In this document: piece after piece, positions 15,515 through 23,727 of the stretch
Layout of the letters: each line of letters begins with the position of its first letter
Position numbering within the stretch: the first letter of the stretch is position 1
NCBI GenBank assembly: GCA_029432815.1
Contig: JAROBA010000004.1
Span: forward strand, 62,001 to 126,000
Reading direction: 5' to 3'
Length of the DNA stretch: 64,000 bases
Source: Pontiellaceae bacterium B1224
GTDB taxonomy: Bacteria; Verrucomicrobiota; Kiritimatiellia; Kiritimatiellales; Pontiellaceae
Translations under genes and position numbers: made by a program
Notes under the pieces: model-generated
The model's database searches: none
Told to the model about the DNA's origin: nothing
Seen by the model: the letters and a program-made list of their open reading frames with translations, nothing else

Positions 15515-16501
15515 ATGGCGGGAATCGAAGTGATTAATCAAAAGGTGCGCGAACAAAGCGCATTCGTACCCACCCTCAAAACTGAAATTGGAAAAGTGAT
15601 CGTTGGTCAGGACTATTTGATCGACCGACTGATCATCAGCATGCTGGCCAACGGCCACGTTTTGCTCGAAGGGGTTCCGGGATTGGCAAAAACGCTGACC
15701 ATTAACACACTCGCCTCAGCGCTCGACACCTCCTTTCAACGCATTCAGTTCACCCCCGACCTGCTCCCCGCGGACATCATCGGCACCCTGATCTACAATC
15801 AGAAAGACGGCGACTTCATCATTAAAAAAGGCCCTGTTTTTGCGAACGTCATTCTGGCCGATGAAATCAACCGTGCTCCTGCAAAAGTACAGAGCGCCCT
15901 GCTCGAAGCCATGCAGGAAAAACAGGTCACGATCGGCGACGAAACCTTTAAGCTGCCCAAGCCCTTCCTCGTGATGGCCACCGAAAACCCAATCGAGCAG
16001 GAAGGCACCTATCCGCTTCCCGAAGCGCAGGTCGACCGTTTCATGCTTAAGCTCAAAGTCGGCTACCCGACCATCGAAGAGGAACGCCGCATCCTCGATC
16101 GCATGGCGCACTCCAATACCGAGATTCAAGTGAATCCCGTCCTGCATCCCGATGAAATTCTGAAAGCCCGCGAAATTGTAGACGAAATTTACATCGACGA
16201 AAAAATCAAGGATTACATCCTCAGCATCGTCTTCGCCACCCGCGAGCCGGAAAAGTACAACCTCGACATCAAAGACTACCTGCAATACGGCGCCTCACCG
16301 CGCGCCACCATCAACCTGACCATGGGAGCCCGCGCACATGCCTTCATGCAGGGCCGGGGCTATGTGACCCCGCAGGATGTAAAATCAATTGCGCCCGATG
16401 TCCTTCGTCACCGCGTCATCGTTTCCTACGAAGCCGAAGCCGAAGAGCTGAGCAGCGAAGATCTCATCAAAGAAATCCTAAGCGAAATCCCGGTTCCCTA
16501 A
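15515..16501 (+). CDS. MoxR-family AAA+ ATPase, first gene of the Bat operon
   Basis: A 328-aa AAA+ protein with the MoxR Walker A variant GVPGLAKT, Walker B VILADEINRAP, sensor 1 MATENPIEQEGTYPLPEAQ and the C-terminal lid domain (YGASPRATINLTMGARAHAF). MoxR ATPases act as chaperones with VWA-domain partners. The next four genes encode the DUF58, DUF4381-like and VWA proteins typically found with them. AGGAG nine bases upstream of ATG 15515 supports the start. The gene is followed after 8 bp by an imperfect hairpin repeat and the DUF58 gene. It is cytoplasmic, probably acting at the membrane on the VWA proteins. Confidence 0.92.
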   Translation: MAGIEVINQKVREQSAFVPTLKTEIGKVIVGQDYLIDRLIISMLANGHVLLEGVPGLAKTLTINTLASALDTSFQRIQFTPDLLPADIIGTLIYNQKDGDFIIKKGPVFANVILADEINRAPAKVQSALLEAMQEKQVTIGDETFKLPKPFLVMATENPIEQEGTYPLPEAQVDRFMLKLKVGYPTIEEERRILDRMAHSNTEIQVNPVLHPDEILKAREIVDEIYIDEKIKDYILSIVFATREPEKYNLDIKDYLQYGASPRATINLTMGARAHAFMQGRGYVTPQDVKSIAPDVLRHRVIVSYEAEAEELSSEDLIKEILSEIPVP

Positions 16502-16505
16502 CGTG

Positions 16506-16542
16506 ATGCGTGAGCCGTGAAACGAGATTCATCACGCCTCAC
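16506..16542. repeat. Imperfect inverted repeat of CGTGA words between moxR and DUF58 genes
   Basis: CGTGAGCCGTGA on the left pairs with TCACGCCTCACG on the right, with one central mismatch. The surrounding sequence repeats the words CGTGA and CACG several times. It occupies almost the whole 65-bp junction. Confidence 0.6.
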
Positions 16543-16566
16543 GTTTCAATCGTCACGCCCTCCTCC

Positions 16567-17454
16567 ATGAACGAAATAAGCCACAAAGATCTTCTTAAAA
16601 AAGTCCGGCGGATTCAGATCACGACGAAGCACGCGGTGAATGATGTGTTTGCTGGGCAATACCATTCCACCTTTAAAGGACGCGGAATGGAGTTCGATGA
16701 AGTCCGCGAATATGTTCCCGGCGACGACATCCGTTCCATTGACTGGAATGTAACGGCCCGTTCCGGCGCGCCCCACATCAAAAAATTTGTGGAAGAGCGC
16801 GAAATGACCGTCATGCTGGTGGTCGATATTTCAGCCTCTAACCTCTTCGGCAGCGGATCGCAATTGAAGCGAGACCTCGCGGCGGAAGTTGCCGCCGTGC
16901 TGGCCTTTTCCGCGATCCGTAACAACGACCGGATCGGGCTGATTCTTTTTTCGGAAGAAGTCGAAAAATATATTCCACCGAAAAAAGGGACACGCCACGT
17001 GTTGCGCCTCGTTCGTGAAATGCTTTCGCACAAACCGCAAGGCAAAGGCACCAATGCCGTACCGGCACTGGACTACCTCAACCACATCAGCACCCGCAAG
17101 AATGTCACCTTTCTGATTTCCGATTTCATGTTCAGTGATAACTACGAAAAACTGCTGAAAATTTCTGCACGCCGCCACGACCTCATCAGCGTCATCATTG
17201 GCGACAAACGCGAAATCGCCTGGCCGAAGATCGGCCTCATCAACTGGCACGATGCCGAAACCGACGAAACCGTTCTCGTAGATACCTCAAGCAAAAAGGT
17301 GCGGGCCAAACTTGCGTCGGATCAGCAAGCCCTATCCACATCCATCGACGAACTCCACCGCAAGGCCGGCATCGATACCATCCGTCTGTTCGCCGGCGAG
17401 TCCTACGACAAACAATTTATCAAATTTTTCCGCCAACGCGCACAACGCAGATGA
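16567..17454 (+). CDS. DUF58 protein (VWA-like), Bat operon
   Basis: From ATG 16567 the protein is 295 aa; the longer frame from GTG 16510 would translate the repeat in the junction and is rejected. It has the DUF58 signature GRGMEFDEVREYVPGDDIRSIDWNVTAR (about residues 38-65) and the degenerate MIDAS motif VVDISAS in a VWA-like fold. DUF58 proteins occur next to MoxR ATPases and are thought to be their clients. No clear Shine-Dalgarno sequence precedes the start, so translational reinitiation from moxR is possible. It overlaps the next gene by 4 bp. No transmembrane segment is seen. Confidence 0.88.
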   Translation: MNEISHKDLLKKVRRIQITTKHAVNDVFAGQYHSTFKGRGMEFDEVREYVPGDDIRSIDWNVTARSGAPHIKKFVEEREMTVMLVVDISASNLFGSGSQLKRDLAAEVAAVLAFSAIRNNDRIGLILFSEEVEKYIPPKKGTRHVLRLVREMLSHKPQGKGTNAVPALDYLNHISTRKNVTFLISDFMFSDNYEKLLKISARRHDLISVIIGDKREIAWPKIGLINWHDAETDETVLVDTSSKKVRAKLASDQQALSTSIDELHRKAGIDTIRLFAGESYDKQFIKFFRQRAQRR

Positions 17455-18437
17455 TTATGAGACCGCTAAGACGCAACGTCGCAAAGAGAGTAGATGAGGC
17501 ATCCTGCCTCATTGCGTTGGCATGTGTAGCCCTGCTTCTCACCGGATGCGAACCGGAAGAGACAAAGGTTTATCCGCAGGATCGCCTGACGGTTGAATAT
17601 TCCGTGGATCGTGACTCGATCATGATCGGCGATCCGGTTGAGTTGATCGTGACGGCATTGTTCCCGACCAACGGCACGCTGAATCTTCCAGAGATTGGAA
17701 ATGAGAAGGATGTCGTGTTGCTTTCCAGAGATTGGACGGACGTGCTACGGGAGGACGGACTGACTCAATCTGAAAGCCGCTATTCCATTACCTCGTTCCG
17801 CCTCGGTGAACATCTGGTTTCCACCGGCATGATTTCCTGCGCTGTGGGTGAGCAGCTTTTCACCACCAACTTCCCGGCTGTTACTCTGCAGGTCAGCTCA
17901 TCTTTGAATGAAGAAAGCAGCTCTGAAATTGCTGACATTAAAGGAATACAGAAGCTCCCGGGTCGAATTCCAAAATGGATCTGGATTGTGCTGGGTTCTG
18001 CCGTCGTCGCCTTTCTGATCGGTTTGATTACTTCCAAACTATGGAAGAACCGCGAGACCCTAATCCCAAGCGCTCCGCCGATTCCTCCAGATGTGATCGC
18101 TTTCCAGGCATTGGAAGCCCTGAAGAACCGGGGCCTGCTGGAAAAGGATGAGTGCAACCCGTTCTACACGGAACTGTCGCTGATTCTTCGCACCTACCTT
18201 GAAGGCCGCTTCAAGCTCAATGCGCCAGACGAAACCACTGAAGAAATTGTGTCCGAACTGAGTAAATCTCCCGATCTCAGCGGACCGCAGCAGAGCATAC
18301 TCCAGGACTTTATGCGTCAGGCCGACATGGTGAAATTTGCCAAAGGCCACCCCGACCGCACTACGATGGAATCTGCCTTCTCCACCACGAAGCAGTTTGT
18401 TGTAGAGACTAAAAACCAGACGAATCAAAATCAATGA
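17451..18437 (+). CDS. DUF4381-like membrane lipoprotein of the Bat operon
   Basis: A 328-aa protein. The N-terminus contains a hydrophobic stretch and the lipobox ALLLTGCE (Cys about residue 33). About 120 periplasmic residues follow with a BatD-like beta domain (VEYSVDRDSIMIGDPVELIVTA), then one transmembrane helix (about 175-195: WIWIVLGSAVVAFLIGLI). The cytoplasmic C-terminus carries the DUF4381 pattern PPDVIAFQALEALKNRGLL and YTELSLILRTYLEGRFKLNAPDETTEEI. The first 30 residues are encoded partly by dispersed repeats (17458-17512). It overlaps DUF58 and the next gene by 4 bp each. Three palindrome copies or near-copies lie inside (17686, 17723, 18102). Confidence 0.8.
   Translation: MIMRPLRRNVAKRVDEASCLIALACVALLLTGCEPEETKVYPQDRLTVEYSVDRDSIMIGDPVELIVTALFPTNGTLNLPEIGNEKDVVLLSRDWTDVLREDGLTQSESRYSITSFRLGEHLVSTGMISCAVGEQLFTTNFPAVTLQVSSSLNEESSSEIADIKGIQKLPGRIPKWIWIVLGSAVVAFLIGLITSKLWKNRETLIPSAPPIPPDVIAFQALEALKNRGLLEKDECNPFYTELSLILRTYLEGRFKLNAPDETTEEIVSELSKSPDLSGPQQSILQDFMRQADMVKFAKGHPDRTTMESAFSTTKQFVVETKNQTNQNQ
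17458..17512. repeat. Two short dispersed repeats inside the signal-peptide region of the DUF4381-like gene
   Basis: First a run of AAGACGCAACGTCGCAAAGAG words (17467-17487), then a perfect hairpin ATGAGGCA-TCC-TGCCTCAT at 17494-17512. Together they encode the residues before the hydrophobic core (R-P-L-R-R-N-V-A-K-R, then D-E-A-S-C-L-I). Confidence 0.65.
17686..17700. repeat. TTCCAR-NSN-YTGGAA palindrome, intragenic
   Basis: TTCCAGAGATTGGAA, second frame (L-P-E-I-G-N). A one-mismatch copy, TTCCAGAGATTGGAC, begins 37 bp later at 17723. Confidence 0.85.
18102..18116. repeat. TTCCAR-NSN-YTGGAA palindrome, intragenic
   Basis: TTCCAGGCATTGGAA, first frame (F-Q-A-L-E). A weaker copy, TTCCAAACTATGGAA, lies at 18032-18046. 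Confidence 0.85.
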
Positions 18438-19396
18438 CCCTCGCACATCCATATTTTCTGTTACTGCTCCTGGTGATTCCGGTCCTGTTATGGCTTCGGC
18501 TTTTCATGGTTCGGAAACAGTCGATGCAGTTCAGCAGCAGTGTGGTGCTTAAAGGGCTCCCGAAGAGTTGGCGCATCCGACTGCAACCGCTCATTCCGCT
18601 TTTTTATACACTCGGGCTCATTTGCCTGATCGTTGCCCTTGCCCGCCCGCAGCGCGGATTGGACGACAGCCGAGTGCGTACGGAAGCGGTGGATATTATT
18701 CTGCTGATGGACCTTTCCGGGTCGATGGACACTCAGGATTTCCAGAAGTTTGGCCGACGCATGAGCCGCCTCGATGCGTCCAAGGAAGTCATTACGCGCT
18801 TTCTTGAAAACCGGCCCGACGACCGGATCGGGATGGTGGCGTTTGCCTCGGTGCCCTACGCAATTGCGCCGCTGACCCTCGACCACGGCTGGCTGGTCCA
18901 GCGCATGGAAGGACTGCATACCGGCATGCTCGATGGCAACCGCACGGCGATCGGCGATGGAATGATGTCGGCCATCAACCGCCTGCAGGACAGTGAGGCC
19001 AAAAGTAAAGTGATCATTCTTCTGACCGACGGAGCGAATAACGCGGGAACGGTGTCGCCGGAAAATGCCGCCGCCGTGGCAGAGGCGGTCGGCGTTAAGA
19101 TATACACCATCGGAGCCGGCGGTGCCCGCACCGGATTCTTCATGCAGCGCCAGGAAGTCGACGAAGATTCGCTCAAAAAAATTGCCGCAACAACGCAGGC
19201 TAAATTCTACCGTGCCAAGGATCTCGAAACCCTCGAGGCGGTTTATGGAGAAATCGATCTGCTTGAAAAAACGGAGATTGAAGTGGAACGCTTTACCCGT
19301 TTCGAAGAAGCATCAAAAGTTTGGCTTATTATGGGCATCCTGTTCCTTGGTCTGGAACAGTTACTGGGACTCAGCAGAATCGGGAGACTCCCCTAA
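18434..19396 (+). CDS. batA: VWA-domain membrane protein, BatA-type
   Basis: A 320-aa protein with two N-terminal transmembrane helices (about residues 8-25 and 55-75), a periplasmic-side VWA domain and a C-terminal helix (VWLIMGILFLGLEQLLGL). The MIDAS motif is intact: LLMDLSGSMD, T in GNRTAIGDGMM and LLTDGANNAG. In Bacteroides and Francisella, Bat proteins affect oxidative-stress tolerance and surface integrity; the exact role is unresolved. ATG overlaps the previous gene by 4 bp and TAA overlaps the next ATG by one base. Confidence 0.9.
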   Translation: MTLAHPYFLLLLLVIPVLLWLRLFMVRKQSMQFSSSVVLKGLPKSWRIRLQPLIPLFYTLGLICLIVALARPQRGLDDSRVRTEAVDIILLMDLSGSMDTQDFQKFGRRMSRLDASKEVITRFLENRPDDRIGMVAFASVPYAIAPLTLDHGWLVQRMEGLHTGMLDGNRTAIGDGMMSAINRLQDSEAKSKVIILLTDGANNAGTVSPENAAAVAEAVGVKIYTIGAGGARTGFFMQRQEVDEDSLKKIAATTQAKFYRAKDLETLEAVYGEIDLLEKTEIEVERFTRFEEASKVWLIMGILFLGLEQLLGLSRIGRLP

Positions 19397-20394
19397 TGAA
19401 ATGGAATAATCCAGATATCCTGATGTGGCTGCTGGCCCTGCTGCCGCTGTTCTTGATTACGGGACTGATGCTGAAGCGCCGCGTGAATCTGCTGAAACGC
19501 ATGGCGGATCAAGGCTTGTGGTCCACAATGCTTCCTCTGTTTTCTCCTCGGCGGCTGCGGTTTAAGAACCTGGTGCGCATTCTTGTGCTTGCACTGGTTA
19601 TTACCGCACTGGCCCGCCCGCAATGGGGCTTTAAGTGGGAAGAGGTGAAGCAGCGCGGACTGAGTATTCTCGTGGCCCTCGACACATCTAAAAGCATGCT
19701 GGCTCAAGACATTAAACCCAACCGCCTGCAACAGGCCAAATGGGGTGTGCGCGATCTGGTAAAAGAACTCCGCGGCGACCGGATTGGCATTGTGGCATTT
19801 TCCGGTGATGCATTCCTGCAGTGCCCGGCCACCATCGACTATGCCGCTTTTCTGATGATGCTCGACGATATTTATGCCGGCATCGTACCCATCGGCGGTA
19901 CCGACTTTTTCCGAGCCTTGGAAACTTCGATTGAAAGTTTTGAAAAGGCCGAAGAAACGCAGGCCGATAAAGTAATCATCCTGATCTCAGATGGTGAAAG
20001 CACAACCGGAGATCCGCTGGCCCTGTTGCCTCGGCTGAAGGAAGAGAAGATCCGGGTATATGCCATTGGTGTCGGCACCAAACAGGGAGAACTCATTCAG
20101 ACCTCTGATGGATTTGTGAAAGATAAAGAAGGCAATGTCGTTAAGAGTTCGCTGAATGAAAATCTACTGGAACGCATAGCCTTTGAGACCGGAGGATTCT
20201 ATGTCCGGTCGGCCCCGGGCGACTTCGGGCTGGAACGCGTTTACCAGCAAGGCATCGCCGAGCTGCAGCGCGAAGACCGCGAGTCGCGTGTATCGAAAAG
20301 CTGGACCGAACGGTTTCAGTGGTTTGTCGGCGCAGCCATTCTGCTGCTGATTCTCGAAGCGATTATCCGACCCATCAAATGGAGGAGTCGATAA
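19396..20394 (+). CDS. batB: VWA-domain membrane protein, BatB-type
   Basis: Starting at ATG 19396 (TAATG overlap with batA) the protein is 332 aa. It has two N-terminal transmembrane segments (WLLALLPLFLITGLML and LVRILVLALVITALA), a VWA domain with MIDAS VALDTSKSML, the second metal ligand region GGTDFFRALE and ILISDGESTTG, and a C-terminal helix (FVGAAILLLILEAII). BatA and BatB are paralogous and usually adjacent, as here, and probably interact in the membrane. A near-copy of the palindrome (19909, arm TTCCGA) reads F-R-A-L-E. Confidence 0.9.
   Translation: MKWNNPDILMWLLALLPLFLITGLMLKRRVNLLKRMADQGLWSTMLPLFSPRRLRFKNLVRILVLALVITALARPQWGFKWEEVKQRGLSILVALDTSKSMLAQDIKPNRLQQAKWGVRDLVKELRGDRIGIVAFSGDAFLQCPATIDYAAFLMMLDDIYAGIVPIGGTDFFRALETSIESFEKAEETQADKVIILISDGESTTGDPLALLPRLKEEKIRVYAIGVGTKQGELIQTSDGFVKDKEGNVVKSSLNENLLERIAFETGGFYVRSAPGDFGLERVYQQGIAELQREDRESRVSKSWTERFQWFVGAAILLLILEAIIRPIKWRSR
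19909..19923. repeat. Near-copy of the palindrome, intragenic
   Basis: TTCCGAGCCTTGGAA in batB, first frame (F-R-A-L-E). One transition in the left arm. Confidence 0.7.
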
Positions 20395-21362
20395 TGAAAT
20401 TATCTCCATTGAAGATTTCAGATTGCCGATTGCCGATCAAATGCCTCGATGTACACCGTGTAGCCAAATCGGCAATGCCGATACGTTTATCCATCATCGC
20501 GATTTTCAGTATACTGACACTGACCGTTCAGGCCGAAGACACGCCGCGCTCTTCTATGCGAAAAGGATTAAAGGCGTATAAGGCCGGCGACTACACCAAC
20601 GCAATTGAGCATCTTGAAAAAACGGCGTTGGAATTTCCAGACATTGGAAACTATGACTTAGGCAATGCGCAGTATCGCGCGGGCGATTTTGAAGCCGCAG
20701 CAAATTCCTTCAACGAGGCACTTCGCACATCGGATCTGGAGCTGCAGGCCAAGGCCTATTTCAACCGCGGCAATGCCCTGCTGGCTCGCACGACGGCGCT
20801 GACCAAAACCGAAGAGATCAGCCTCGCCATTGAATTGTCGTTTCAGGCGATGGATATGTATGAGAAGGCCATCCTGCTGCAGCCGGAAGATCTGCTGGCC
20901 AAGCAGAATTTTGAGCGGGCGCAGCAGCTGCGACTGAAACTCGAATATAATTTGGGCCGCTGGTACTTTGATCAGGCGGAAGAGCTGCTGCCGCAATTTA
21001 AAGCGAAGGATGCTAAGAAAAATTATCAGCTGGCGAAAAAGCAGTTTAATCACATTCTGGAGAACGTGAATCCGAACCACGCCGAGTCGCAACAGTTTCT
21101 TCCGAAAATCGATGAGCGTCTGGAAATGCTGGCCCTCGCAGTGGAAGCCGCAGAGATCGACTTGAAGACGGCTCTTCAGTATATTGCCGATTATCAGTAC
21201 ATGCTCGCCGCCCAGCGGTTGACAACGGAGACCGATGAGCGAAAATATGCATTCGATTTAAAACCCGATTTGAAGAAACGATACGAAGAGGTCATTAAAA
21301 AAAACCAGGAGATCCTGAAGATTATCCAGGACCTGTTCCCAACAACAAATATTGCCCAATGA
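20394..21362 (+). CDS. TPR-repeat exported protein of the Bat operon
   Basis: ATG 20394 follows GGAGGAG and overlaps the batB stop by one base. The protein is 322 aa with an unusually long N-terminal region. A repeat-derived segment (residues about 6-13, I-S-D-C-R-L-P-I) comes first, then a signal-peptide core (RLSIIAIFSILTLTVQA) near residue 45. After cleavage there are at least three TPR-like helical pairs (KGLKAYKAGDYTNAIEHLEK, NAQYRAGDFEAAANSFNEAL, AYFNRGNALL) and a long C-terminal helical part. In Bat operons TPR proteins such as BatC sit beside VWA proteins and probably serve as scaffolds in the periplasm. MPIRLSI (ATG 20478) would give a more ordinary signal peptide and is a possible alternative start. 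Confidence 0.8.
   Translation: MKLSPLKISDCRLPIKCLDVHRVAKSAMPIRLSIIAIFSILTLTVQAEDTPRSSMRKGLKAYKAGDYTNAIEHLEKTALEFPDIGNYDLGNAQYRAGDFEAAANSFNEALRTSDLELQAKAYFNRGNALLARTTALTKTEEISLAIELSFQAMDMYEKAILLQPEDLLAKQNFERAQQLRLKLEYNLGRWYFDQAEELLPQFKAKDAKKNYQLAKKQFNHILENVNPNHAESQQFLPKIDERLEMLALAVEAAEIDLKTALQYIADYQYMLAAQRLTTETDERKYAFDLKPDLKKRYEEVIKKNQEILKIIQDLFPTTNIAQ
20407..20500. repeat. Short inverted/tandem repeat with GATTGCCGAT words at the 5' end of the TPR gene
   Basis: GATTGCCGATTGCCGAT near 20418-20436 is mirrored by AATCGGCAATGCCGAT about 40 bp further on. The arms are complementary, and the element lies within the first 35 codons of the gene. Confidence 0.55.
20635..20649. repeat. TTCCAR-NSN-YTGGAA palindrome, intragenic
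   Basis: TTCCAGACATTGGAA in the TPR gene, second frame (F-P-D-I-G-N). Confidence 0.85.
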
Positions 21363-21898
21363 AGATTAGCCTTTCCATTCTACTGACTGCCCTGGCGGCT
21401 GCGGTTTCTGCGCAGGACATCGAGGTTGATATTGATTCAACGTATTTTCATCCTGCCGCCAGCATGTATGTTCAGGGCAATTCCGCCGGTGCGAGTAATC
21501 TGGTCTACACCGGTCTTGCCCAATTTCCCGACAATGGAAAACTGCTCCGTCTGAAGGAACTGCTGGACCAGCAGCAGGAACAGGAAAATCAAGATCAGAA
21601 CCAGGACCAGCAGGACCAACAAGACCAGCAGGATCAAGAGGACCAACAGGATCAGCAGGACCAACAGGATCAGCAGGATCAAGAGCAAGACCAACAAAAT
21701 CAGAACCAGCAGGATCAGGAGCAACAGGATCAGGAGCAACAGGAGGCGGATGCTCAGCAACCGCCTCCCAGCGCGGAAAAGATGAGCCAGGATGAAGCGG
21801 AACGACTGTTGGAGGCCATGAAGCAGGATGAAGAGAATAAACGTCTTCAACTGCATCCGGTGATGGGCGCTCCAGTTAAAGTAGACAAAGATTGGTAA
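21359..21898 (+). CDS. Exported Asp/Gln-repeat protein of the Bat operon
   Basis: A 179-aa protein with signal peptide MKISLSILLTALAAAVSAQ, about 55 ordinary residues (YVQGNSAGASNLVYTGLAQFP, which resembles one TPR unit), then an extreme low-complexity tract from about residue 75 to 128 made almost only of D, Q, E and N (units such as D-Q-Q). It ends with a conserved-looking tail SQDEAERLLEAMKQDEENKRLQL, similar to the end of BatC-type proteins, where EAERLLNAL-type sequences follow an acidic/glutamine-rich linker. The start overlaps the previous stop (ATGA). The acidic tract may act as a flexible spacer or bind cations; this is speculation. Confidence 0.75.
   Translation: MKISLSILLTALAAAVSAQDIEVDIDSTYFHPAASMYVQGNSAGASNLVYTGLAQFPDNGKLLRLKELLDQQQEQENQDQNQDQQDQQDQQDQEDQQDQQDQQDQQDQEQDQQNQNQQDQEQQDQEQQEADAQQPPPSAEKMSQDEAERLLEAMKQDEENKRLQLHPVMGAPVKVDKDW
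21580..21755 (+). repeat. Imperfect 9-bp tandem repeat (CAGGACCAA-type) encoding D/Q
   Basis: About 18 units of CAGGACCAA, CAGGATCAG, CAAGACCAG and similar, all in frame and all encoding Gln-Asp-Gln or close variants. Expansion and contraction by slippage would keep the frame. The boundaries are approximate. Confidence 0.8.
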
Positions 21899-21899
21899 A

Positions 21900-22012
21900 A
21901 CGAATTTCGAATAACGAACAGGGAATGATGAATTTCGAGGGAATACAACAGGGCTGGATGGCAAGGAAACTTCGTAATTCGATATTCCTTGTTCTCTGCT
22001 CGTTATTCGTAA
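21900..22012. repeat. MITE-like inverted repeat at the batC-like/batD-like junction
   Basis: TTTCGAATAACGAACAGGGAAT near the left end is mirrored by ATTCCTTGTTCTCTGCTCGTTATTCGTAA near the right end; the two arms are largely complementary. The element starts directly after the upstream stop codon. Its right arm encodes the hydrophobic core of the next signal peptide (N-S-I-F-L-V-L-C-S-L-F-V-S). Confidence 0.6.
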
Positions 22013-23727
22013 GTGCGGGCACCGCACTTGCGGCGGATGTACAGATGACGATTGATCGCGAACTGATCAGTCTTCTCGACCGAGCGGTTCTGAAAGTCGA
22101 ATTCATTAACGCCAGCGGAAAGGCGCTGGATATTCCCCCGGTGGATGGCCTGAAGATTCAATATCAGGGGCAGAGCTCAGAGACGCGCATCGTGAATATG
22201 AAGCGCACTTCAAAGGTGATTCATACCTATATCATCACACCTTCAAAAGTCGGCGACTACACCATCGGCCCGGTGACCGCACACTATAAAGGTGGAGAAA
22301 AGGAACTCTCGGCCCAGCTCCGGGTCATCAAACCCGCCGACGACAAAGAAGCGCAGGAAATTTCCGAGCTGATGTATTCGGAAATCACCAGTGATCGCGA
22401 TGCGCCCCATGTGCATGAACCGTTCAACCTGACCCTGAAAGTTTTTATCCGGGACGGCGTTCAGATTGATGGAAATTTTGCGCTTCGCGGCGGGATGCCG
22501 GAAAACGGGATGGACGGCGAACTGCAGTGGAGAGTGACGGGCCGCGACCGAGCGGAAATAGACGGTTCAATTTTCACGGTCCACACGCTTACGGCGACGG
22601 CAAAAACCCTGACGGCCGGTACCTTTACGTTCCAGCCGCAGGTTCAGATGAATGTCATCATCCCGCGTCAGAATCGCCGCTCCTACGGCTTCGACGATCC
22701 GTTCTTCGGCGACTTTTTCGGGCGGCAGGAAACCCGCCCCTTTGTGCTGGATTGCAATAAACTGGAGGTCGATGTGCGGGCCGTTCCAATGGCTGGAAGA
22801 CCGGAAAGTTTTACCGGTGGTGTCGGCATTTTTGATTTTGATGTGGAAGTTGGACCCAAACAGGTGAAAGCGGGTGAACCGATTACCATCAAAACCCGTA
22901 TTCGCGGCGAAGGCAACCTTTCGCAGATCACGCCGCCGACCATTGAAGAAAGTCACGAGTTTAAACTATATGATGCGCGAACGGTGGCGACCGATAATCC
23001 GAACGAAGTAAAGTTTGAGCAGGTGTTGATTCCCAAGTCGGACAGCGTCACGAATGTTCCTGCGATTTCGTTCTCCTATTTCAACACCAAGACCACCGAC
23101 TTCCGCACCATTAAACAGGGCCCCTTCCCCATTTCGGTTGAGGCGGTTCCGCAGCAAACAGCTCAGGTGATTGCCACCGTCCCAAGCACTATTCAACAGG
23201 AAACCAAAATTCTCGGCCGTGATATTGTATATCTGAAGCCCATGCCGACTGTCTGGAGCCGAACCACAGAACTGCCCTGGTATCGAAAGATAACATTCCA
23301 GGCCCTGTTGGCCCTGCCCGCCCTGCTTCTATTGCTGGTATCGGGCTCCACGGCTCGTAGAAACCGGCTGTCGAACAACGTGGCACTGGCCCGCCGCCAA
23401 CAGGCACCAAAGGCCGCCCGCAAACAGGTGCAGCTGGCGGAACAGGCTTTGCGCAAAAGGGATGAAGCTGCCTTCTACGAAGCGCTATGGAATGCGATGG
23501 CGGAATATTTCGGTCATCGGCTGAACCTGGCTCCCGGCGAAGTTTCGATGCAGGCGGTGCTTAAATCGTTTCCCGCTGAACAGGCCGCCATTGAAACGCT
23601 GTTCAACAGCGTCGAACAGCGGCGCTACGGCATTAAGCCGGATCGCTCAAATTCGAAAGACGAGATGAAAGCGTTGCTGAATCAACTGACGACCACACTG
23701 AAAAAATGTGAAAGGATTAAGCTATGA
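21958..23727 (+). CDS. BatD-like oxygen-tolerance protein
   Basis: From ATG 21958 the protein is 589 aa. The frame is open back to TTG 21892, but the extra residues come from a dispersed repeat. The signal peptide is MARKLRNSIFLVLCSLFVSAGTALA. It has several beta-sandwich repeats in the periplasm, including LLDRAVLKVEFINASGKALD, TPSKVGDYTIGPVTAHYKGG and FDVEVGPKQVKAGEPITIKTRIRGEGNLS. A single transmembrane helix near residue 470 (FQALLALPALLLLLVSGS) precedes a cytoplasmic helical tail (ALRKRDEAAFYEALWNAMAEYFGHRL). This is the BatD (PF13584) layout. It overlaps the next gene by 4 bp. A palindrome variant lies at 22784. Confidence 0.85.
   Translation: MARKLRNSIFLVLCSLFVSAGTALAADVQMTIDRELISLLDRAVLKVEFINASGKALDIPPVDGLKIQYQGQSSETRIVNMKRTSKVIHTYIITPSKVGDYTIGPVTAHYKGGEKELSAQLRVIKPADDKEAQEISELMYSEITSDRDAPHVHEPFNLTLKVFIRDGVQIDGNFALRGGMPENGMDGELQWRVTGRDRAEIDGSIFTVHTLTATAKTLTAGTFTFQPQVQMNVIIPRQNRRSYGFDDPFFGDFFGRQETRPFVLDCNKLEVDVRAVPMAGRPESFTGGVGIFDFDVEVGPKQVKAGEPITIKTRIRGEGNLSQITPPTIEESHEFKLYDARTVATDNPNEVKFEQVLIPKSDSVTNVPAISFSYFNTKTTDFRTIKQGPFPISVEAVPQQTAQVIATVPSTIQQETKILGRDIVYLKPMPTVWSRTTELPWYRKITFQALLALPALLLLLVSGSTARRNRLSNNVALARRQQAPKAARKQVQLAEQALRKRDEAAFYEALWNAMAEYFGHRLNLAPGEVSMQAVLKSFPAEQAAIETLFNSVEQRRYGIKPDRSNSKDEMKALLNQLTTTLKKCERIKL
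22784..22798. repeat. TTCCAR-NSN-YTGGAA palindrome, intragenic
   Basis: TTCCAATGGCTGGAA in the batD-like gene, second frame (V-P-M-A-G-R). Confidence 0.85.

Follow-up and report, generated by a model that had tools for sequence, protein, structure and literature searches.

The 64,000-nt window from Pontiellaceae bacterium B1224 that was analysed holds a Bat operon with short repeats at four of its gene junctions (Table 1). The lipoprotein-like gene at the DUF4381 position had no Pfam or NCBIfam match at E <= 0.01, and an Rfam search of the window gave zero matches. The hairpin behind moxR begins right at the moxR stop codon (TAA, 16499-16501) and is built from the words CGTGATG CGTGAGC CGTGAAA and their inverted copies (TCACGCC TCACGTT ... 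GTCACGC).

Table 1 Genes and junction repeats of the Bat operon (window coordinates; fold z, RNA folding z-score).
Feature	Position	Strand	Evidence or remark
moxR-type AAA ATPase gene, first of the operon	15515..16501	+	Pfam AAA_3, AAA_lid_2
moxR/DUF58 heptad hairpin	16500..16558	+	lag-7 excess +0.33, fold z -3.64
DUF58 gene, cytosolic, without signal peptide	16567..17454	+	Pfam DUF58
Lipoprotein-like gene, DUF4381 position	17451..18437	+	profile searches
Weak AAGACGCAA array, 8-nt period	17463..17486	+	below threshold; 8 nt past the DUF58 stop
GTAG plus palindrome ATGAGGCA-TCC-TGCCTCAT (TCC-loop hairpin)	17490..17512	+	REP-like form
BatA-like VWA gene	18434..19396	+	NF047508, PF07584
BatB-like VWA gene (vwa2)	19396..20394	+	NF047506
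TPR (BatC-like) gene	20394..21362	+	ATG overlaps vwa2 stop; GGAGGAG upstream
vwa2/TPR heptad array GATTTCA GATTGCC GATTGCC GAT	20408..20437	+	lag-7 excess +0.40
Short inverted partner AATCGGCAATGCCGAT of the vwa2/TPR array	20468..20483	+	
Q/D-rich low-complexity gene, between TPR and batD	21359..21898	+	
batD element, left heptad arm GAATTTC GAATAAC GAACAGG GAATGAT GAATTTC	21902..21945	+	lag-7 excess +0.21, lag-14 +0.23
batD gene	21925..23727	+	Pfam BatD
batD element, right arm	21970..22012	+	79% complementary, fold z -4.24

Junctions were scored in fixed 200-nt segments against gene-interior controls; narrow-window inverted-repeat z-scores missed arms reaching into a gene. The four repeats described in an earlier note were all present, and three of the four junctions passed the test, namely moxR/DUF58 (lag-7 score 10, control 99th percentile 7), vwa2/TPR (lag-7 score 15, with a fold z of merely -0.3) and batC/batD (inverted-repeat score 20, from arms at 21905-21938 and 21979-22012). 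DUF58/DUF4381 stayed below threshold in the source genome, with a lag 8-11 score of 7 against a control 99th percentile of 10 and a fold z of -0.7, and exceeded it in five relatives. The repeats had been called unrelated, which is true of their letters but not of their architecture, as the three solid cases share a 7-nt period; that of DUF58/DUF4381 is 8 nt.

Genome-wide counts covered 1.13 of 5.38 Mb and relied on a home-made gene caller. GATTGCC in 2.5 units had 15 matches and CGTGAAA in 2.7 units had 107, compared to 0 for the reversed control in both cases, while the batD hairpin matched 25 places by BLAST at E <= 10, with about nine non-self matches, the strongest, at E <= 0.025. The TCC-loop hairpin, tested as a dispersed REP, was a single copy in the 1.13 Mb. 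Lag-7 runs lay mostly outside gene interiors (28 of 36), though interiors made up 79% of the sample. Overall, the results support the view that the repeats are members of dispersed families with the look of inserted elements. In a survey of 21 genomes (Pontiella and close relatives), we observed repeats over and over at the same Bat-operon junctions (44 of 129, against a background of 1.9%; P about 8e-43, which overstates independence because sequences at one junction share descent). Between close species, the repeat of one junction varied in sequence, type and even presence.

AGGG, the start codon and the signal-peptide core of batD are all supplied by its palindrome. The left arm, which sets in about 3 nt past the upstream stop, provides AGGG and the ATGs at 21925/21928, and the right arm is an open frame into the gene that encodes L-R-N-S-I-F-L-V-L-C-S-L-F-V (codons 21970-22011), confirming the claim that this arm encodes the hydrophobic core. 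Repeat-encoded residues had been proposed for three signal peptides, and for the other two this was so for the n-region only, encoded in the TPR protein by the vwa2/TPR array (K-I-S-D-C-R-L-P-I) and in the DUF4381-position protein by the weak AAGACGCAA array. If translation began at an internal TPR ATG (20478), the signal peptide would start within the right-hand inverted copy. The n-region of the batD signal peptide holds different repeat families in different species. Some batD arrays of the TTGAAAC type may have grown in situ from an ancestral TTGAAA start.

The suggestion that mobile repeats prefer signal peptides as landing sites would fit the repeat-encoded residues in the batD, TPR and DUF4381 signal peptides of many relatives. 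However, junctions before signal-peptide genes carried a repeat about as often as those before other genes (27/77 vs 17/52, Fisher P = 0.85), and the batC signal peptide was struck in only 1 of 21 genomes. Hydrophobic N-termini were not enriched in genes adjoining heptad arrays genome-wide (5/19, background 33%), and in the cross-phylum sample just 3 of 18 arm-encoded N-termini were hydrophobic; such N-termini occur in cytosolic proteins too. A preference for signal peptides is thus very unlikely, and what the repeat sites have in common is a stop-start junction rather than a signal peptide.

In five relatives, the moxR/DUF58 junction held an element with an IVP gene, which codes for a four-helix-bundle "23S intervening-sequence" protein and was identified by profile searches (TIGR02436, 85.8 bits; PF05635, 60.2 bits). 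A second cargo family, GxxExxY (TIGR04256/PF13366 in profile searches), was found between arms at DUF58/DUF4381 in relatives G004 and G014 and at DUF4381/vwa1 in G004 and G006, and at the latter junction G008 had an empty palindrome with the arm type of the G004 and G006 copies. The window copies contain no ORF. The architecture was observed directly and recurred across phyla, with inverted arms around 53 of 71 IVP genes (54 of 72 in the first run) and, in Pontiella, around 21 of 28 IVP and 21 of 29 GxxExxY genes; among other small genes the figure was 4.5% (n = 178). Periodicity in the IVP arms was +0.20 at lag 7, +0.15 at lag 14 and +0.09 at lag 21 (lag 8, +0.03; otherwise <= 0), and the words of GxxExxY arms were 8-10 nt long with a peak at 9. 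The batD left arm is identical at 35 of 41 nt to the arm of an IVP-carrying element in the same genome (G000:C99), a match scoring 27 against a shuffle maximum of 16. Since G004 and G014 have a GxxExxY gene between such arms at DUF58/DUF4381, the weak AAGACGCAA array there is best seen as a putative decayed arm of the GxxExxY type.

These elements sit at junctions between protein genes and touch gene ends only. Their position relative to stop codons was observed directly: heptad arrays began a median of +1 nt from the stop of the gene before them (between -3 and +10 in 42 of 56), as did GxxExxY arms (median +1; 11 of 18 within -5 to +10), with less tight anchoring in the Pontiella IVP sample (6 of 19 within -5 to +10). 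The upstream gene was co-directional in 36 of 37 scorable cases, and in 18 of 38 cross-phylum cases the right arm, preceded by a start codon, could be read as the N-terminus of the following protein. A TGA or TAG inside an array truncates entering frames, which alone pulls stops towards arrays; yet most arrays begin after the stop.

We conclude that the repeats are probably arms of small palindromic elements placed directly behind stop codons within operons. Those of the window we take to be arms of elements of the IVP and GxxExxY types, for the most part without cargo, given the arms around IVP and GxxExxY genes and the match between the batD and G000:C99 arms. A full element would run from a left arm of tandem words of about 7 nt through a short ORF for an IVP four-helix bundle to a right arm with these words in inverted orientation. 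Alongside it, a second type would combine arms of 8-10-nt words (peak 9) with a GxxExxY (PD-(D/E)XK-like) ORF. Cargo-less copies or remnants would be the palindrome alone, the ORF having presumably been lost or absent from the outset. The elements would be mobile, and by analogy with 23S rRNA intervening sequences (IVSs) their hairpin may be cut or tolerated in the mRNA. Since 7 is not divisible by 3, any heptad array that lacks stops reads as one and the same 7-residue peptide whichever frame is used, and the right arm could therefore serve as an N-terminal extension in any of them. If the following protein is secreted, this extension lies within the signal peptide, which tolerates it; at batD it provides the hydrophobic core. 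Neither a target-site duplication nor a transposition event was seen in the junctions compared, and an empty-like (G028) and a filled (G005) moxR/DUF58 site, from distant genomes, displayed no obvious duplication by eye.

An alternative explanation is that the heptad arrays are ordinary short tandem repeats grown by polymerase slippage at junctions, the hairpins and IVP genes being incidental. Repeats with a 7-nt unit are common across bacteria and an origin by slippage has been put forward (PMC4679880, PMC4692102), pure arrays exist (12 x GCGTAAT in G005; a TGAGGCG array at G000:C149), and the TTGAAA words of batD may stem from a TTGAAA start conserved in relatives. Slippage, however, yields direct rather than inverted arrays, whereas about 75% of IVP genes, against 4.5% of controls, lie between paired inverted arms, and separate loci have identical arm families. 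More than slippage is needed, and we regard this account as improbable. We also find it unlikely that the hairpins are kept for operon function, as RNase III or translation-control structures setting the ratio of Bat proteins. Folding is strong at two junctions (z of -3.6 and -4.2), about one third of junctions have a repeat, and the stems of 23S IVSs serve as substrates for RNase III (PMC4990558), all of which would suit such a role, but the variability of one junction between close species, the visibly decayed batD palindrome in G016 and the lack of a matching Rfam family argue against it. REP/RAYT palindromes are a highly improbable source. GTAG does stand before other palindromes of the genome (39 of 3601 GTAG sites; control tetramers, 0.3-0.8%), and the TCC-loop hairpin at 17490 is one of these. 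At the window junctions, however, it is the sole palindrome with that tag, and no GTAG/GGAG was seen before the heptad arms there. Heptad arms also have a 7-nt period and, as their consistent neighbour, an IVP gene.

Earlier work has described heptanucleotide repeats, palindromes that code for protein and 23S IVSs, each on its own. The 23S rRNA IVSs with an S23/IVP ORF, for example in Coxiella burnetii, were suggested by earlier authors to be mobile elements (PMC4990558). They share with our palindromic elements the ORF family (PF05635/TIGR02436) and terminal inverted repeats that enclose it in a long stem, but lie in helices 9, 25 or 45, whereas our elements lie between protein genes at operon stop codons, have arms of 7-nt tandem words translated into the next gene and were not seen inserted in rRNA. 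Known heptanucleotide repeats include the STRR of cyanobacteria, TAACTGA of Beggiatoaceae (PMC4679880) and GGGAATC of Xanthomonas (70-75 inverted-pair cases per genome; PMC4692102); they too are 7-nt units between co-directional genes by start or stop codons, sometimes in inverted pairs, and three of the four window repeats are likewise 7-nt tandem units in junction DNA. One of the two papers favours a post-transcriptional regulator site and the other G-quadruplexes, and the parts consulted link neither repeat to an IVP gene. Rickettsia palindromic elements (Ogata et al. 2000, as described in PMC10969869) are in-frame short palindromes that also encode part of a protein, but they lie inside genes rather than at junctions and have neither heptad arms nor IVP or GxxExxY cargo. 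Like MITEs, our elements are short, non-autonomous and dispersed with terminal inverted repeats, though no target duplication or parent transposase was identified for them. A literature search, with preprints and most subscription papers outside its range, returned no publication that connects heptad arrays with IVP genes (such a link may be published there) or GxxExxY to a four-helix bundle, and nothing relevant on IVP with repeats.

A broader and more tentative possibility is that IVP (TIGR02436) and GxxExxY may each drive one of two sister classes of mobile palindromes, which would target operon stop codons, copy their own tandem-word arms, account for much of the heptanucleotide (STRR-like) repetitive DNA long known in bacteria and provide an ongoing supply of new N-termini. 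For two widespread families, the elements offer a genomic context that hints at their function, and for the heptanucleotide repeats seen in many phyla a candidate owner. They also show a route from non-coding palindromes to protein N-termini, signal peptides included. Caution is warranted with annotated N-termini such as NRQSAIGNRQSAIGN or NQQSKIENQQSKIG, which may be element arms; MSTLNSKLQTPNIPRN-like and NRQSAIGN-like N-termini are candidates for being arm-encoded.

We confirmed that repeats are present in the window sequence at all four Bat-operon junctions for which they had been claimed. The operon of the source genome (a 5.38-Mb draft) was compared to those of 20 relatives (18 from the same genus, one from the same family and one from the same order); the lipoprotein-like protein in the "DUF4381" position had no match in Pfam or NCBIfam. 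Junctions were assessed in 200-nt windows and passed when exceeding the 99th percentile of 378 gene-interior windows from the same operons for period 7, periods 8-11 or inverted repeats. Overall, 44/129 junctions passed, compared to a control rate of 1.9% for any of the three criteria. Shared ancestry among the genomes makes the nominal P value (8e-43) too strong, yet the pattern still lies far outside chance expectation. The window junctions moxR/DUF58, vwa2/TPR and batC/batD were among those passing, and DUF58/DUF4381 did not pass by period or inverted repeat. RNA folding agreed with this at moxR/DUF58 (z -3.64) and batC/batD (z -4.24), with no equally stable shuffle for either, and was unremarkable against shuffles at the two other junctions.

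Features of the Bat operon region and associated repeats (window positions unless a contig is named)
Feature	Position	Description
Bat operon	15515-23727	MoxR-type ATPase, DUF58, lipoprotein-like, two VWA (BatA-/BatB-like), TPR, Q/D-rich, BatD
moxR/DUF58 words		CGTGATG-CGTGAGC-CGTGAAA; lag-7 excess +0.33
vwa2/TPR words		GATTTCA-GATTGCC-GATTGCC; lag-7 excess +0.40
batC/batD words		GAATTTC-GAATAAC-GAACAGG-GAATGAT-GAATTTC; lag-7 excess +0.21/+0.29
REP-like palindrome	17490-17512	GTAG, then perfect 8-bp palindrome with TCC loop
Q/D-rich tandem region	21560-21750	gene between TPR and batD; 9-nt period, ~60 codons
Pure heptad array	G000:C149:34916-35003	source genome; TGAGGCG, ~12 copies
TTCCAANNNTTGGAA copies	5106, 7757, 7785, 8383, 8604, 9728, 9754, 14973, 25259, 27602, 28307, 33105, 33164, 33242, 38184, 44832, 53787, 57174, 62255	palindrome

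The earlier note had called these repeats unrelated, which holds for their words, but the three solid ones have a common 7-nt period; the weak fourth has a period of 8 nt. The window repeats are one architecture rather than four accidents. Period 7 was also the most frequent long tandem period in 1.13 Mb of the source genome, with 28/36 runs outside gene interiors, which make up 79% of this sample. The pure array on contig C149 and another of about 12 GCGTAAT copies at the vwa1/vwa2 junction of relative G005 appear recently expanded.

In five relatives, moxR/DUF58 carries roughly 400 nt extra, with an ORF for a four-helix-bundle 23S intervening-sequence protein (IVP; TIGR02436/PF05635) flanked by a GATTGCC array on one side and the inverted copy of that array on the other. 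A second cargo gene, GxxExxY (TIGR04256/PF13366), lies between inverted CGCGAAAGAACGCAAGGAACGCAAA arms at DUF58/DUF4381 (G004, G014) and DUF4381/vwa1 (G004, G006), and a palindrome of this arm type stands alone, without cargo, at DUF4381/vwa1 of G008. Across phyla, 75% of 71 IVP loci had inverted flanks that were significant, and 92% carried an array of 7-nt words; among 178 other small genes in the source genome the shares were 4.5% and 7.3%. In Pontiella, inverted arms flanked 21/28 IVP and 21/29 GxxExxY genes. The only peaks of IVP arms were at lags 7, 14 and 21, with lag 8 barely above zero (+0.03); for GxxExxY arms the peak was at lag 9. The arms of the IVP gene on source-genome contig C99 match the batD left arm (35 identities over 41 nt; score 27, against a maximum of 16 in 500 shuffles), which ties the batD palindrome directly to an IVP element.

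Arrays began -3 to +10 nt from the upstream stop codon in 42/56 cross-phylum cases (median +1, likewise for GxxExxY arms), and the upstream gene was co-directional in 36/37 scorable cases; the smaller Pontiella IVP sample was more scattered (6/19 within -5 to +10). In the window, the moxR/DUF58 array begins at the moxR stop and the batD array about 3 nt past the stop that precedes it.

A long downstream frame on the same strand follows 38 of the cross-phylum elements, and in 18 of these the right arm lies in that frame behind a predicted start codon. We take some of the downstream genes, from their sequences, to resemble UppS (VPRHVAIIMDGNGRWA), D-Ala-D-Ala ligase, NuoG and DUF58. The gmd/fcl junction (L064, L073, L082) is a second hotspot of IVP elements, with different arm words in three Pontiella genomes; each arm is readable as a GDP-fucose synthetase-like N-terminus (predicted MSTLNSKLQTPNIPRN..., MNLQTTDSKLQTSGIAKGS... 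and MNSATNNQQPTTSIPRD...). Because 7 is coprime to 3, a heptad array encodes one seven-residue peptide, whichever frame is read. The extreme case is batD, whose left arm supplies AGGG and the ATGs and whose right arm, by codon reading, encodes LRNSIFLVLCSLFV of its signal peptide. Other species have TTGAAAC/GAAATTC, CGTGATG or CGTAATG words at this site.

Signal peptides were not special as landing sites, contrary to the earlier suggestion: repeats were borne by 27/77 junctions before signal-peptide genes versus 17/52 others (Fisher P=0.85), and the batC signal peptide was nearly free of them (1/21). N-termini were hydrophobic in 5/19 genes adjoining heptads genome-wide, compared to 33% of all genes, and in 3/18 cross-phylum arm-encoded cases. 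All of these tests relied on small samples and a simple rule for hydrophobicity, and none indicated a preference.

Beyond the observed architecture, position, recurrence and readable arms, we propose that a palindromic element inserts behind a stop codon and that its arms are kept or regenerated as paired copies, the bare palindromes having lost, or never had, the ORF. Such an element would be tolerated because it lies between genes and because the next gene can use its right arm as an N-terminal extension. By analogy with 23S intervening sequences (IVSs; PMC4990558), it may form a stem cleaved by RNase III. This picture agrees with the earlier idea of Ralph and McClelland (1993, as cited in PMC4990558) that the IVS ORF functions in mobility. 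Already known are 23S IVSs (PMC4990558), the palindromic elements of Rickettsia (via PMC10969869), and heptanucleotide repeats that separate genes pointing the same way (PMC4679880, PMC4692102). A literature search excluding preprints found no link of heptad arrays to IVP genes or of 8-10-nt arrays to GxxExxY genes.

Other palindromes were also seen. The TCC-loop palindrome occurred once in 1.13 Mb, and the operons of the 20 relatives lacked it. TTCCAANNNTTGGAA occurred 1177 times in the source genome versus 0 for its reversed control, with 0 to 1339 copies in relatives; 185/266 copies in the 1.13-Mb sample lay inside genes. Among the copies listed in relatives G048 and G052, spacing was often 31-32 nt, as would suit a DNA-binding protein that binds cooperatively.
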